25,281 bases of DNA, taken from a virus. Below, in pieces: positions 3,185 to 20,995 of this stretch; within the stretch, counting starts at the first letter, position 1; each line of letters opens with the position of its first letter. The notes under the pieces were generated by a model, which made no database searches, was not told the origin of the DNA, and saw nothing but the letters and a program-made list of their open reading frames with translations. Position numbers and translations under genes: made by a program. The stretch lies in IMG/VR virus record IMGVR_UViG_3300019458_000004, positions 64,001 through 89,281 of that record; one strand, 5' to 3'.

Positions 3185-3418
3185 ATGGCTAAAGTTAGAT
3201 TTCGAAATCGAACAAATGATATAATTAAGGCTAAATATGTCGAAAAAAGAACTTTCACAATCGGTTTATTTGCCTTTGGTTGCGTTTTTAGTCTTCTTTT
3301 GACTGCTACATACCGGCTTTACATTTTAGGCGATTTGACCACTATTATACAGCAAATACAGAGCCAAATAACAACTTATTATAATCAATTAGAAACCTTT
3401 ATAAAAGGGTTGTTTTGA
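3185..3418 (+). CDS. Small single-TM membrane protein overlapping the protease gene
   Basis: 77 aa. The N-terminus is basic (residues 1-22, many Arg and Lys). One hydrophobic segment at about residues 24-46 (FTIGLFAFGCVFSLLLTATY) should span the membrane once with the N-terminus in the cytoplasm. A polar, Gln-rich, probably helical C-terminal tail of about 30 residues would face the periplasm. The stop codon overlaps the TTG start of the serine protease, so the two are translationally coupled and probably act together. Possible roles are protease partner, holin-like pore former or superinfection-exclusion peptide; sequence alone does not decide. There is no Shine-Dalgarno sequence before its ATG; the leader is pyrimidine-rich. 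Confidence 0.65.
   Translation: MAKVRFRNRTNDIIKAKYVEKRTFTIGLFAFGCVFSLLLTATYRLYILGDLTTIIQQIQSQITTYYNQLETFIKGLF
3368..3385 (+). promoter_or_regulatory. Candidate internal promoter motif upstream of the protease
   Basis: ATAACAACTTATTATAAT matches the copy at 5347 in 15 of 18 positions, including the same extra T after AACT. It lies within the coding sequence of the 77-aa protein, 30 bases before the protease start. Coding constraint could explain part of the match, so this is a candidate only. Confidence 0.35.
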
Positions 3419-4167
3419 AAAATTTGAGCGAAAAGTTAAAATACACCGGAAAAATAATGTTTATTGCACTACTTTGTATTTCCGTAGCAATTAAAGGTCC
3501 AGAATTTCATTATGATTATGTTCGAAATAAAGTTCAAAAAACGACCGTTTTAGTGACTAATGAAACTAAAACGCGGGGAGGCAGTGGCGCCCATGTAATT
3601 GCGCCGAGCGGTAAAGTTTATATTATTACTAATGCTCATGTTTGTAATTTAAGTAAAGACGCAAATATCTTTATTACCGATAATTTTGGTAGAACTATTC
3701 CAAGACGTATTCTTGAAATTAGTAATTTTACTGATCTTTGTTTAGTTGAATCTCTTCCTAATTATCAAGGAGCTTTAAAGCTCGGTAGTGATGTGCGATC
3801 CGGGCAAATTATCGCTGCTGTAGGTCATCCCATTCTTATGCCAACAACTATGAGCCGGGGTGAAATTATCGGTGTAAAAGAAGTTGATGTTTTTGATCAT
3901 ATTATGGATGTTTTTGATAAAAACGATAAGTGTGATCTTCCCAAAAACCGCATTATTCAGATTGACACATTTTTTGGTCCAATAACGGCATGCTTTGTTC
4001 ATGTAAAAGCTAACTTGACTACCTCCGTGGTTTTACCCGGTTCATCGGGTTCACCGATGGTTGATTTTTATGGTAACTTAGTTGGGGTTATTTTTGCGGG
4101 AAACCAAGCTAATTGGGGATTAGCTATTACGTTAGCGGACATAAACCTTTTCTTAAAACCATATTAA
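3415..4167 (+). CDS. Membrane-anchored trypsin-like serine protease
   Basis: 250 aa. The start is TTG at 3415 with AAGGG five bases upstream, overlapping the previous stop; ATG at 3457 is a weaker alternative. Residues 1-14 are basic, and 15-27 form a signal anchor (MFIALLCISVAI). The rest is a chymotrypsin-fold protease of the HtrA/V8-like type. The catalytic triad is visible as His75 in ITNAHVC, Asp107 in FTDLCLVE and Ser211 in PGSSGSPMVD, with GHP and GVIFAGN strands in the expected places. Four cysteines lie outside the membrane (77, 109, 173, 193) and could form disulfides, fitting a periplasmic domain. No PDZ domain. Its position before scaffold and capsid genes suggests a maturation protease, but the anchor and cysteines argue for action on envelope proteins. 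Target unknown. Confidence 0.85.
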   Translation: MKNLSEKLKYTGKIMFIALLCISVAIKGPEFHYDYVRNKVQKTTVLVTNETKTRGGSGAHVIAPSGKVYIITNAHVCNLSKDANIFITDNFGRTIPRRILEISNFTDLCLVESLPNYQGALKLGSDVRSGQIIAAVGHPILMPTTMSRGEIIGVKEVDVFDHIMDVFDKNDKCDLPKNRIIQIDTFFGPITACFVHVKANLTTSVVLPGSSGSPMVDFYGNLVGVIFAGNQANWGLAITLADINLFLKPY

Positions 4168-4249: not shown

Positions 4250-5227
4250 ATGTCAGAACAAGCCCAAAACCCCGCTCCTGCGGCTAGTGAAGCCAATCAA
4301 GAAGCGCAAGCCTCCGAAACTAATGAACAGGCTAACGAATTAGCTCAAGAACAATCAGAAGGTGCGGAACAAACCGCCGCCGAAACTAAAAAAGAAGAAG
4401 CAAAGATTGCTAAAAAATTAAAGCAATTAAAGCTTAAAGTTGACGGTAAAGAAGTCAATGAAGATCTTCCTTTTGAAGTTGATGAAGGATCTGAAGCGGC
4501 TGAATACATGACTAAACAGCTTCAATTAGCTAAAGCTGCCCAAAAACGTATGGGTGAAGCTTCTGATTATAAAAAGAAGCTCGATCAAGTTGGTGAATAT
4601 CTTCAACAAGCTAAAGGTAATCCTAACAAAATTCGCGAATTGATGAAGGATCTTGAAATTGATGAAAGACAATTAGCTGCAATGATTGTAGAAGAAGAAT
4701 TAGAAAAGGCTAAGAAGTCACCAGAACAATTAGAGAAAGAAGCATTACAAGCTGAACTTCAAAAGATCAAAGACGAGCGCGAAAGCGAAAAAAAGGAAAT
4801 GGAAGAGCGAGAATATCAACGCTTAGTTCAACAAGAAACCGAACGCTATTCATTAATGATTGATGGTGCATTAAGTAAAGCCGGTTTACCGAATAATCAA
4901 GTTTATCGTGAACGTGTTGCTAAGTATTTATCTAAAGCAATTGAAAAAGGTGTTGAAGTTACGGCAGAAGATGTGGTTCCTCTTGTAAAAGAAGAAATTG
5001 CACAGGAAATTCAAGCGCTATTTGCCGCAAGCCCAGAAGATTATGTAGAACAACTTCTTGGTAAAGATACCCTTAAGCGTCTACGTAAGCGTAATCTTGA
5101 AAAAGCTAAGGCAGGAGATCAACCCCCTGTTCCTCTTAAGCAACAAGTAAAAGATACGGGCTCTGATAAAGTTAAGCCTAAAGAAGAGCCTAAAGTTAGC
5201 TTTAAAGATTATTTTAAGAAATTATAA
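4250..5227 (+). CDS. Capsid scaffolding protein
   Basis: 325 aa with AAGGA five bases before ATG. Residues 1-55 are a low-complexity, disordered stretch of Ala, Glu, Gln and Asn. Residues 60-200 are highly charged, with long helices and coiled coil (heptad pattern strongest at about 145-200). The C-terminal 50 residues are Lys- and Pro-rich and end in FKDYFKKL, the short basic helix that in scaffolding proteins binds the coat protein. No Cys or Trp. Composition, length and position just upstream of the head protein genes are typical of phage scaffolds. There is no sign of a protease domain fused to it. Confidence 0.85.
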   Translation: MSEQAQNPAPAASEANQEAQASETNEQANELAQEQSEGAEQTAAETKKEEAKIAKKLKQLKLKVDGKEVNEDLPFEVDEGSEAAEYMTKQLQLAKAAQKRMGEASDYKKKLDQVGEYLQQAKGNPNKIRELMKDLEIDERQLAAMIVEEELEKAKKSPEQLEKEALQAELQKIKDERESEKKEMEEREYQRLVQQETERYSLMIDGALSKAGLPNNQVYRERVAKYLSKAIEKGVEVTAEDVVPLVKEEIAQEIQALFAASPEDYVEQLLGKDTLKRLRKRNLEKAKAGDQPPVPLKQQVKDTGSDKVKPKEEPKVSFKDYFKKL

Positions 5228-5967: not shown

Positions 5968-7224
5968 ATGTCTGCAATTAATACGTTCGGAGATCCAGCA
6001 GCTACCGTAGGTACGATGAATGGATTTTTCAAAGAACTATACGCCGATAAAATTAAGGTTCTTTATCCGGAAGATGTTCATCTTTTGAACATGATCGATT
6101 TCGCGGGTAAGGAAAAGAATCTCGGTAATCTATATCACCAACCAGTTGCGCTTGGTCTAGAACACGGTATCACGTATGCCGGTCCTGACGAAGATGCGTT
6201 TAATCTTCTTCCTGCTGTCTCTTCCCCGATGCGTGATGCACAAGTGAAGGGTAACGCGAAGGTTATGCGTTCGCAAATTGGTTATAATGCTCTTTCTCGC
6301 TCTGGTAGCGATAAAGCGTCATTCGGAAGTGCGTCTAAGTATGTGGTCGAAAACGCTATGCGTTCTTTCACCAAAATCCTTGAGATTGAGCTTCTTTACG
6401 GTCAAATGGGATACGGAACGGTTTCCGCTGTTTCAGCGTCAACGGTTACGATCACTCTAGCTGAGTGGGCTCCGGGAATTTGGTCAGGCTCCAAAGGGAT
6501 GCCGATTGAAATCCGTGATTCTACGGGCGCAACTTCTCGTGGTCAGTTCGTAATTTCAAGTGTCAATCTTGATACGCGCGTTCTAACTCTTGATAGCTCT
6601 GCTGCGGCGGCTGGCGTTGTTGCCACTGACGTAATTTGGCGTCGAGGTGCTTATAACAATGAATTTGCGGGAATTCACAAGATCCTAAGTCAATCAAGCG
6701 GTTCGCTCTTTAATATTTCTGTGAGCGATTTCGAATTATGGCGCGGAAATAGCTTTAGCGCGTCCAGCGCGGCTCTTAGCTTTAATAAGCTAAATCTCGC
6801 GGTCACTCGTGCGATTGAAAAGGGCCACATGGGTAAAATGCTTGCGCTAGTTTCTCTAAAAGCGTGGGCGAATATGATGTCAGATCAAGCTGCTCTTCGG
6901 AAATACGATGGTAGCTACTCCAAACAAAAGATGGAGAACGGTTCTGAGCGTCTTGTGTTCCATTCTCAAAACGGAGAAATCGAAATTCTTCCTTCTATTT
7001 ATGTGAAGGAAGGATATTCTTATCTCTTGTCTGAGGATAACTGGATGCGTGTTGGAAGTCGTGATATTTCCTTCAATATTCCGGGAATGCCTGGGGATCA
7101 AATTCTTAGACAGCTAGAGAATTCTGCTGCCTACGAATTTAGGATGTATACAGATCAAGCTTTGTTCTGTAGCGCTCCTGGCCGGAACGTGCTTATCACT
7201 GATGTTGTGAACTCAACGACCTAA
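5968..7224 (+). CDS. Major capsid protein
   Basis: 418 aa, GAAAGGA ribosome binding site, tandem stop TAATAA. The N-terminal part holds FFKELYADKIKVLYPEDVHLL and the run GNLYHQPVALGLEHG, followed by RDAQVKGNAKVMRSQIGYNA and KILEIELLYGQMGYG. This is the pattern of a podophage coat protein family with an HK97-like fold. Residues about 150-225 form a beta-rich insertion with TITLAEW and RGQFVISSV strands, placed where P22-like coats carry their inserted domain. Codon use is unlike most of the window: leucine is CTT/CTC/CTA with TTA almost absent, and AAG is frequent for lysine. It lies after the scaffold gene, and a terminator follows directly. No N-terminal propeptide is obvious. Confidence 0.88.
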   Translation: MSAINTFGDPAATVGTMNGFFKELYADKIKVLYPEDVHLLNMIDFAGKEKNLGNLYHQPVALGLEHGITYAGPDEDAFNLLPAVSSPMRDAQVKGNAKVMRSQIGYNALSRSGSDKASFGSASKYVVENAMRSFTKILEIELLYGQMGYGTVSAVSASTVTITLAEWAPGIWSGSKGMPIEIRDSTGATSRGQFVISSVNLDTRVLTLDSSAAAAGVVATDVIWRRGAYNNEFAGIHKILSQSSGSLFNISVSDFELWRGNSFSASSAALSFNKLNLAVTRAIEKGHMGKMLALVSLKAWANMMSDQAALRKYDGSYSKQKMENGSERLVFHSQNGEIEILPSIYVKEGYSYLLSEDNWMRVGSRDISFNIPGMPGDQILRQLENSAAYEFRMYTDQALFCSAPGRNVLITDVVNSTT

Positions 7225-9796: not shown

Positions 9797-10470
9797 ATGA
9801 GGAAAAAGTGTCGTAAATGTGGAGAAACTAAACTCCTTTCTGCCTATGCAAAAAGCGGTATAAAACAATACCCTTATCGCGGCACTTGTAAACAATGCAA
9901 TAATGAAATGGCTAAACAACCTCATAATCCGTTAATTAGTTTTTGCAAGCAGAATGGATTAAAAATATGCAGCAATTGTCAGATTATTAAATCTATTGAT
10001 TCTTTTTATAAGATAAAAAATCGTCAAACTTCGAATTTTAAAGAATGTAAAAATACGTTTTTAAAAGCTTGGCGTAAAAGTAATCGCCAAAAAGTTAATA
10101 AAATTGCCAAAACCTGGCGAGATAAAAATGAAGAAAAGGTTAAAGAAACTAATCAGGTTAACTATTTGGCCAATAGAGAAAAAATAATCGAAAATGGGTT
10201 GAAAATAACAGAGGAAAATATAACGCATATCATGTTAATAGGTATCTGAGTAAAATTAAAAGAACGCCCCAATGGTTAGCTAAAGAACATTTATTACAAA
10301 TAGAAAAGTTTTATACCAAAGCTCAACAATTAACGGTAATAACGGGGATTCAGTATGAAGTTGATCATATTGTGCCTTTAAATGGTAAAAATGTTTCTGG
10401 TTTGCACGTTCCGTGGAATTTGCAAATTTTAACAAAAACGGAAAATATTAAAAAGTTTAACAACTTTTAA
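9797..10470 (+). pseudogene. Frameshifted HNH homing endonuclease with N-terminal zinc fingers
   Basis: The first frame runs 9797-10249 and encodes CxxC pairs (CRKCGETK, CKQC, CSNCQIIK) plus basic WRKSNRQK-type repeats, then loses similarity. A different frame (reading from about 10183 to the stop at 10468-10470) continues with NNRKWVENNRGKYNAY, RTPQWL, a helix, and the HNH core EVDHIVPLNGKNVSGLHVPWN. Joining at the run of six A at 10179-10184 restores a continuous protein (REK-NNRKW), so one A is missing relative to a working gene. Causes could be real decay, a homopolymer sequencing error, or slippage on AAA AAA. A second expected zinc-finger pair near KECKNTF has one Cys only. Free-standing HNH genes are mobile, intron-type elements. 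No clear ribosome binding site. Confidence 0.8.
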
Positions 10471-20144: not shown

Positions 20145-20546
20145 ATGTTTAATGTTAGAAAATTTAAACAAACTGATTTTGAAATGCTTCACAATTGGTG
20201 GAAAATACAAGATGAATTTCCTCCAACGCGAGAAATGCTTCCGGAAGAAAGCACTTTTATTTGTGAATTTAATGAGATTCCAATGGTTTCCATTACAGTT
20301 TATTTAACCAATTCTAAAGAGTTTTGTATGTTGGATAATTTTATTGGCAATCCGGATGTTCCAAAGGATTTAAGGAAAGAAGCATCTAGTTTAATTATTG
20401 CGTATTCTGAACAATTTGCTAAAGATTTAGGTTATAAATCTATATTGTGTATGTCTTTAAAAGAAAAGCTTTCAAATTATTATCAAAGCTTTGGATATAT
20501 AAAACGTTTAACTAACGTTTCAACTTTTAATAAGGAGTTACTCTAA
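20145..20546 (+). CDS. GNAT-like acetyltransferase-fold protein
   Basis: 133 aa. It begins with MFNVRKFKQTDFEMLHNWWK, the N-terminal strand-helix of the GNAT fold. A central strand-rich part (FICEFNEIPMVSITVYL, CMLDNFI) is followed by a long helix, and the C-terminal SLKEKLSNYYQSFGYIKR fits the Y-x3-GY (YYQSFGY, residues 112-118) end of GNAT proteins. The acetyl-CoA P-loop (Q/R-x-x-G-x-G/A) is not clear, so catalysis is doubtful. T7 gp13 and its relatives are GNAT-like proteins encoded among ejection genes, and this gene sits in the equivalent place. Weak ribosome binding site. Confidence 0.65.
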   Translation: MFNVRKFKQTDFEMLHNWWKIQDEFPPTREMLPEESTFICEFNEIPMVSITVYLTNSKEFCMLDNFIGNPDVPKDLRKEASSLIIAYSEQFAKDLGYKSILCMSLKEKLSNYYQSFGYIKRLTNVSTFNKELL

Positions 20547-20995
20547 TGTCTCGAAAGCCGTGTAAAATCGAGGCATGTCCTTCAAAAAGTGCTAATGGTG
20601 GAATGTGTTGGCGACATTATAATATTGATTATAAAAATCGTTACAGTGTATCTAGAAAACGTAAATATAAACGAAGTGAAAAAGGTAAATTACATCAAAA
20701 AATATATCACGATAAGGCTCGTTTAGAAGCTTTATTGCATTATAGTCAAAACGAATTAAAGTTTAATTGTTGCGGTGAAACTACGTATGAGTTTTTAACC
20801 TTAGAGCATATTTTTAATAATGGTGCTCAACATCGAAGAGAAATTAATAACAGGAATTTATATATTTGGTGTCGCAAAAATCAATTTCCTGTGGGATTTC
20901 AAGTTTTGTGTATGAATTGTAATTTTGCTAAAGAAAAATATAGAGGTTGTCCCCATATGAAATCAAAGAATGTATTAAGAAAGGCGGGTATTTAG
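20546..20995 (+). CDS. HNH homing endonuclease with N-terminal zinc finger
   Basis: 149 aa, TAATG overlap with the preceding gene and AAGGAG upstream. Cys6, Cys11, Cys21 and His24 form a small zinc finger. Residues 33-65 are very basic. The HNH core is FLTLEHIFNNGAQHR (residues 83-97) and then QVLCMNCNFAKEKYRGCPH (119-137), with Cys75/76 and Cys122/125. The usual D-H of the first motif is E87-H88 here. The layout, including LYIWCRKNQFPVGFQ, is that of free-standing phage HNH endonucleases. The gene separates two ejection-protein genes and is probably a mobile insertion. Unlike the copy at 9797, its frame is intact. Confidence 0.85.
   Translation: MSRKPCKIEACPSKSANGGMCWRHYNIDYKNRYSVSRKRKYKRSEKGKLHQKIYHDKARLEALLHYSQNELKFNCCGETTYEFLTLEHIFNNGAQHRREINNRNLYIWCRKNQFPVGFQVLCMNCNFAKEKYRGCPHMKSKNVLRKAGI

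Follow-up and report, generated by a model that had tools for sequence, protein, structure and literature searches.

A predicted periplasm-facing, DegS-like serine protease of uncultured phages and its co-occurrence with a subtilase

Most of what is known of phage proteases concerns cytoplasmic enzymes of head maturation; these belong to protein families other than the one considered here, are not exported and stay in the head module. The described proteases closest in structure to the enzyme of this locus are DegS and AlgW, members of the HtrA group (S1C) that act as site-1 proteases in sigma-E-type pathways; DegS is gated by its PDZ domain. A further structural relative, the MarP (Rv3671c) family, consists of membrane-tethered periplasmic proteases that carry a multi-TM domain. 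Here we analyzed a window of 25,281 nucleotides, corresponding to bases 64,001-89,281 of an 89,281-base virus record (IMGVR_UViG_3300019458_000004), which encodes a trypsin-fold serine protease whose fold is ordinary and whose setting is unusual. Judged by its structural model, the enzyme would resemble the protease domain of DegS devoid of its PDZ domain, but it lacks the defining features of the DegS/HtrA proteases.

Sequence and modelled fold of the protease

The protease gene occupies positions 3415-4167 of the window on the plus strand and encodes a protein of 250 amino acids. According to the list of open reading frames its TTG start codon overlaps the TGA stop codon of a gene for a 77-aa single-TM protein (3185-3418, plus strand), and the resulting 4-nt overlap, TTGA, has the geometry of translational coupling. 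Both frames and their overlap are exactly as given in the first-pass annotation, which had also described a trypsin-like protease with a complete triad (75, 107, 211), a signal anchor and four ectodomain cysteines; all of these elements were recovered. The protein matches Pfam Trypsin_2 (PF13365, 1.5e-13) with 52.1 bits against a curated cut-off of 27.6, and PHROG 9683 ‘protease’ over residues 10-156 (E 1.1e-12). The His75-Asp107-Ser211 triad is intact and invariant in a family alignment of 27 sequences, as are the cysteines found two residues after the catalytic His and Asp: His75 and Cys77 (3637-3645) belong to the motif TNAHVC, and Asp107 and Cys109 (3733-3741) to the motif TDLC. The nucleophile Ser211 (4045-4047) lies in a PGSSGS motif (4036-4053), and Cys173 and Cys193 (3931-3993), a second cysteine pair, complete the four cysteines of the ectodomain. 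The N-terminal signal anchor (3415-3537) has a hydrophobic core at approximately residues 14-32 preceded by a basic N-terminus, and hydropathy and charge predict an N-in/C-out orientation.

Modelling with AlphaFold2 from the family alignment (mean pLDDT 92.4, pTM 0.85) gave one long helix over residues ~1-41, followed by a beta-rich domain. The top structural matches were the protease domains of DegS, HtrA1, AlgW and MarP, with a Foldseek E value of ~1e-11. The closest of these was the Yersinia DegS-type protease 5jd8 (Z 25.6, rmsd 2.0, 178 residues), and Z scores of 23-26 against DegS, HtrA and AlgW chains assign the model to the HtrA/DegS (S1C) protease-domain fold. A PDZ domain was found neither by Pfam nor in the model, and the chain ends at residue 250, right after the protease domain. 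The NCBIfam models for DegS, DegQ, DegP, HhoA and others scored 15-38 bits, below their cut-offs of more than 400, and the MarP model NF033740 was likewise below threshold (32.3 against 250 bits).

Export elements and distribution of the family

An N-terminal hydrophobic export segment, assigned by hydropathy and motif, was observed in 27 of the 27 aligned members. Most possess anchors; a canonical lipobox is present in L050, L051, L052, L059 and L060, and the N-termini of L055 and L062 resemble cleaved signal peptides. Since the type of export element varies and the segment is nevertheless always present, export appears to be conserved as a function. The second cysteine pair is jointly present in 24 members and jointly absent in three, a C-terminal pair contributes either two cysteines or none per member, and the number of ectodomain cysteines is even throughout the alignment (27/27). 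Disulfides formed in an oxidizing compartment predict even cysteine numbers, and the observed parity thus fits a disulfide-bonded periplasmic enzyme. From these features we infer a protease that is very probably tethered in the host inner membrane and active in the periplasm, with a predicted topology in which the catalytic domain faces the periplasm and the cysteines pair into disulfides. A periplasm-facing enzyme, as proposed in the first-pass annotation, is well supported by the conserved export elements, the even cysteine numbers and the DegS-like fold.

Profile searches of IMG/VR identified 34 viral loci of the protease family, to which a second pass added no members, and a search seeded with the subtilase described below gave strong matches in at least 14 additional records; overall, the family is present in more than 30 uncultured phages. 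A tblastn search of 50,697 phage records with three members as query gave no true match. The plasmids searched contained distant Do-type proteases only, and the bacterial genomes searched contained only distant homologues, with the exception of L062, which lies among phage-like genes on an 11.5-kb contig binned in a Bacteroidetes MAG. The sole match annotated as a phage, OR844991.1 (‘Staphylococcus phage SA 1306 Kay’, 209 kb, L005), was discarded because at the matched place it appears to be a Staphylococcus aureus chromosomal contig, encoding a 774-aa HtrA-type protein beside TerC-like and transporter-like genes. In a FastTree phylogeny of the protease domains, a single edge with a support of 0.97 splits 30 viral from 22 cellular sequences, the latter being hits of the same search only. 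In the literature searched we found no paper that treats phage-exported proteases of the trypsin or subtilisin type as a class, and in the parts of PMC12409349 considered here capsid assembly proteases are the sole phage proteases named. The family is apparently an exported variant of trypsin-fold proteases that was not described before and is restricted to phages. The portal protein of the window phage has its closest annotated match in a Silvanigrella phage (31% identity), a weak hint that the host may belong to the Bdellovibrionota.

The adjoining TM gene and a second exported protease

The 77-aa protein encoded upstream of the protease has a basic N-terminus, a TM segment at approximately residues 24-42 and a short amphipathic C-terminal tail predicted to lie outside; it showed no significant family in Pfam, PHROG or NCBIfam. 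The sibling phage L170 keeps both genes, here with the overlap ATGA, and its TM protein and protease are 57% and 68% identical to those of the window phage. The corresponding dN/dS values of 0.26 and 0.24 reveal purifying selection, indicating that both genes are real and constrained. Both proteins diverge faster than the scaffold-like protein (84% identical, dN/dS 0.16) and the major capsid protein (MCP; 96% identical over the first 158 residues, dN/dS of this fragment 0.03). Beside other members of the family, homologues of the 77-aa protein were found only in L170. Small TM genes in general are commoner next to the protease gene (12 of 46 neighbours, compared to 32 of 477 other genes; odds ratio 4.9, p=1.3e-4, an optimistic value given that some of the phages are related and the gene calls heuristic). 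Across the family these adjoining genes are unrelated in sequence; in one clade (L036, L040, L042, L047) the protease follows a similar TM gene of 85-93 aa. The two-part membrane device envisaged in the first-pass annotation is therefore borne out in part: the pair and its overlap persist in the sibling phage and small TM genes are enriched, but no homologue of the 77-aa partner was found with the other members, of which all those aligned possess the export element. In L170, a gene for a patatin-like phospholipase (L170:2187-3008; PF01734, 6.7e-21) lies directly upstream of the pair; as a component of the cassette it was rejected, being absent from 20 other records including the window phage.

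Outside the window, the same phage encodes an exported S8 subtilase of 230 amino acids on the minus strand (G000:C1:40854-41543, L095:854-1543; PF00082, 1.3e-11) with intact D/H/S motifs. Its TTG start follows directly after the stop codon of a 49-aa TM open reading frame, an arrangement similar to that of the trypsin-like gene. An S8 subtilase was present in 12 of 32 records of the protease family (11 of 31 when the window phage is left aside) but in none of 31 unrelated viral controls (p=8e-5), and among records of at least 60 kb in 11 of 15 compared to 0 of 6 controls (p=0.004). Reciprocally, the trypsin-fold family was carried by 21 of 50 viral records selected for S8, whereas any Trypsin_2 at all was seen in one of 31 controls (p=6e-5); shared ancestry and fragmentary records confound all of these counts, which also rest on small control sets. 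L031, L046 and L205/L260 have the two genes side by side, and in L193 only a lipoprotein-like gene parts them. Inspected by eye, the S8 proteins also have export elements, in the form of signal peptides or lipoboxes, and their mature part contains an even number of cysteines. Given the test in both directions and the recurrent adjacency, a functional link between the trypsin-fold protease and the S8 subtilase is plausible despite the weakened statistics, and the subtilase encoded elsewhere in the genome is a more consistent partner of the protease than the 77-aa protein. Small S8 subtilases were also detected more widely in uncultured phage contigs, many of them 150-175 kb in length (155 loci matched, 80 kept as L171-L250); several of those inspected appear to be exported, and few descriptions of the group seem to exist.

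Genomic position and proposed role

A scaffold-like gene (4250-5227, plus strand; homologues with 55% identity in L038 and 84% in L170) lies between the protease gene and the gene for the MCP (5968-7224, plus strand; PHROG 14242, 6.1e-13; 28% to the MCP of the Silvanigrella phage). The first-pass annotation had placed the protease between fibre and head genes; the head genes are indeed found downstream, and for a fibre gene upstream weak support comes from a gene at 1659-2441 that matches SO2946-like_C and Laminin_G_3. Elsewhere in the window, small CxxC-rich open reading frames, possibly HNH or zinc-finger proteins, at 9797-10249 and 20546-20995 showed no significant family match, and a 133-aa frame among virion-protein genes (20145-20546) looked GNAT acetyltransferase-like by eye and had no Pfam match.

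The gene lies directly upstream of the scaffold gene in the window phage and L170 and close to that gene in L038, a position that would by convention suggest a protease for the maturation of heads or virions. This position is not constant, and among the relatives the neighbouring region may be one of lysis or DNA metabolism, or a divergent one. The protease gene of L003, a phage with a portal 46% identical to that of the window phage, is divergent from the terminase gene TerL; the gene lies near the terminase in L032, L043 and L057, and in the clade of L049-L054 and L059 it is located among DNA-metabolism genes (as judged by eye and one tblastn search). A lysis-gene neighbourhood was observed in six relatives: the protease gene adjoins or lies close to a lysozyme gene in L039, L048 and L252 and an M15-type endolysin gene in L055, and an Rz-like spanin is encoded two genes down in L047 and directly after the protease in L257. 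The window phage and the L049-L054/L059 clade do not share this neighbourhood; in the former, an endolysin-like gene (G000:58238-58804) is ~9 kb away from the protease gene, which sits within the structural region. The gene's position outside the head module in relatives makes a role in head maturation unlikely, and the signal anchor, the even cysteines and the lack of any prohead-protease family among the Pfam, PHROG and NCBIfam matches render it very improbable indeed. Consistent with this, no family member was seen in the partial record of the Silvanigrella phage whose portal, MCP and tail genes are homologous to those of the window phage. The doubt already expressed in the first-pass annotation, that this is a head-maturation enzyme, is thereby reinforced. 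A recurrent gene order in L036, L040, L042, L047, L251 and L256-L259 consists of a small TM gene, the protease, a TM and coiled-coil gene (Rz-like where matched) and a signal-peptide protein with a C-terminal TM segment, and may represent an uncharacterized lysis cassette.

We favour, with a probability of about one half, a reading in which the phage secretes a DegS-like protease, often together with a subtilase, that cleaves host envelope proteins and aids envelope disruption and lysis. The protease would be made in the cytoplasm and exported by Sec, leaving its N-terminal helix in the inner membrane, whereas in some relatives it would be lipidated or cleaved instead. Its trypsin/DegS-like catalytic domain would then fold in the periplasm, stabilized by two disulfides, and cut host proteins in their periplasmic domains, in many phages together with the S8 subtilase; such cleavage during infection would assist in disrupting the envelope and lysing the cell. 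In this scheme proteolytic activity and host-protein substrates are presumed, and the frequent pairing with a second exported protease suggests an attack on host envelope proteins. Lacking a PDZ domain, the enzyme is probably a constitutive or partner-regulated cutter rather than a peptide-gated stress sensor. The link to lysis is the least certain element. The gene’s location among DNA-metabolism genes in the L049-L054/L059 clade indicates that its timing need not be late and that a lysis role is not general. A more tentative extension, possible but well short of even odds, is a two-enzyme programme of periplasmic proteolysis in many large uncultured phages, in which the exported DegS-like protease and a small disulfide-bonded subtilase would together clear an envelope protein layer of the host, or one would activate the other.

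Other functions of a periplasmic protease appear less probable. Exclusion of superinfecting phages, with the anchored enzyme degrading a receptor or the tail and ejection proteins of incoming phages in the periplasm, would suit an anchored periplasm-facing enzyme with a small TM neighbour, a variable, moron-like gene position and a divergence between siblings that exceeds that of most head genes; we regard it as unlikely, since an unspecific envelope protease would threaten the host early in infection too. Somewhat less likely still is a regulatory site-1 protease that switches the envelope stress response by a DegS-like cut in a host TM regulator of the anti-sigma type. Two of the best structural matches, DegS and AlgW, have the same architecture of a single N-terminal TM segment and a protease domain, but the gating PDZ domain is missing from the phage enzyme, the lipoprotein and signal-peptide versions need not remain at the inner membrane, and the pairing with a subtilase points to a role of lower specificity. 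That same pairing would suit bulk proteolysis, and the fold is that of the HtrA quality-control enzymes, so the protease might replace or supplement host HtrA when infection causes stress, or degrade host protein for amino acids; the absence of a PDZ domain, from which oligomeric cages of the DegP kind would not be expected, leaves this explanation about as doubtful as the regulatory one.

If a widespread, exported and disulfide-bonded family is indeed often encoded together with an exported protease of another clan, phages would act on the envelope proteins of their hosts from within the periplasm, a proteolysis step of which we found no description in the literature searched. The two-enzyme programme, if true, would add a proteolytic step to infection or lysis beyond holin, endolysin and spanin. 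What the window protease shares with the head-maturation proteases of the HK97, T4 gp21 and lambda gpC types is that, in the window phage, its gene adjoins the scaffold gene. It matches PHROG 9683, an entry annotated as ‘protease’ without a described function or location. MarP likewise is a membrane-tethered periplasmic trypsin-like protease (Z 23.3, weak NCBIfam match), but the window protease scores far under the cut-off of that family and possesses one TM helix where MarP has several. DegS and AlgW share with it a single N-terminal TM segment and a periplasmic trypsin-like domain; the window protease differs from both in being phage-encoded, in having no PDZ domain, in its conserved cysteine pairs, in a sequence identity of only 20-24% and in belonging to a viral clade set apart from the sampled cellular homologues by the edge with 0.97 support. 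Finally, the exported phage S8 subtilases (PF00082, PHROG 3677) are serine proteases of an unrelated clan and fold that occur in the same phages and likewise combine an export element with even cysteine numbers.
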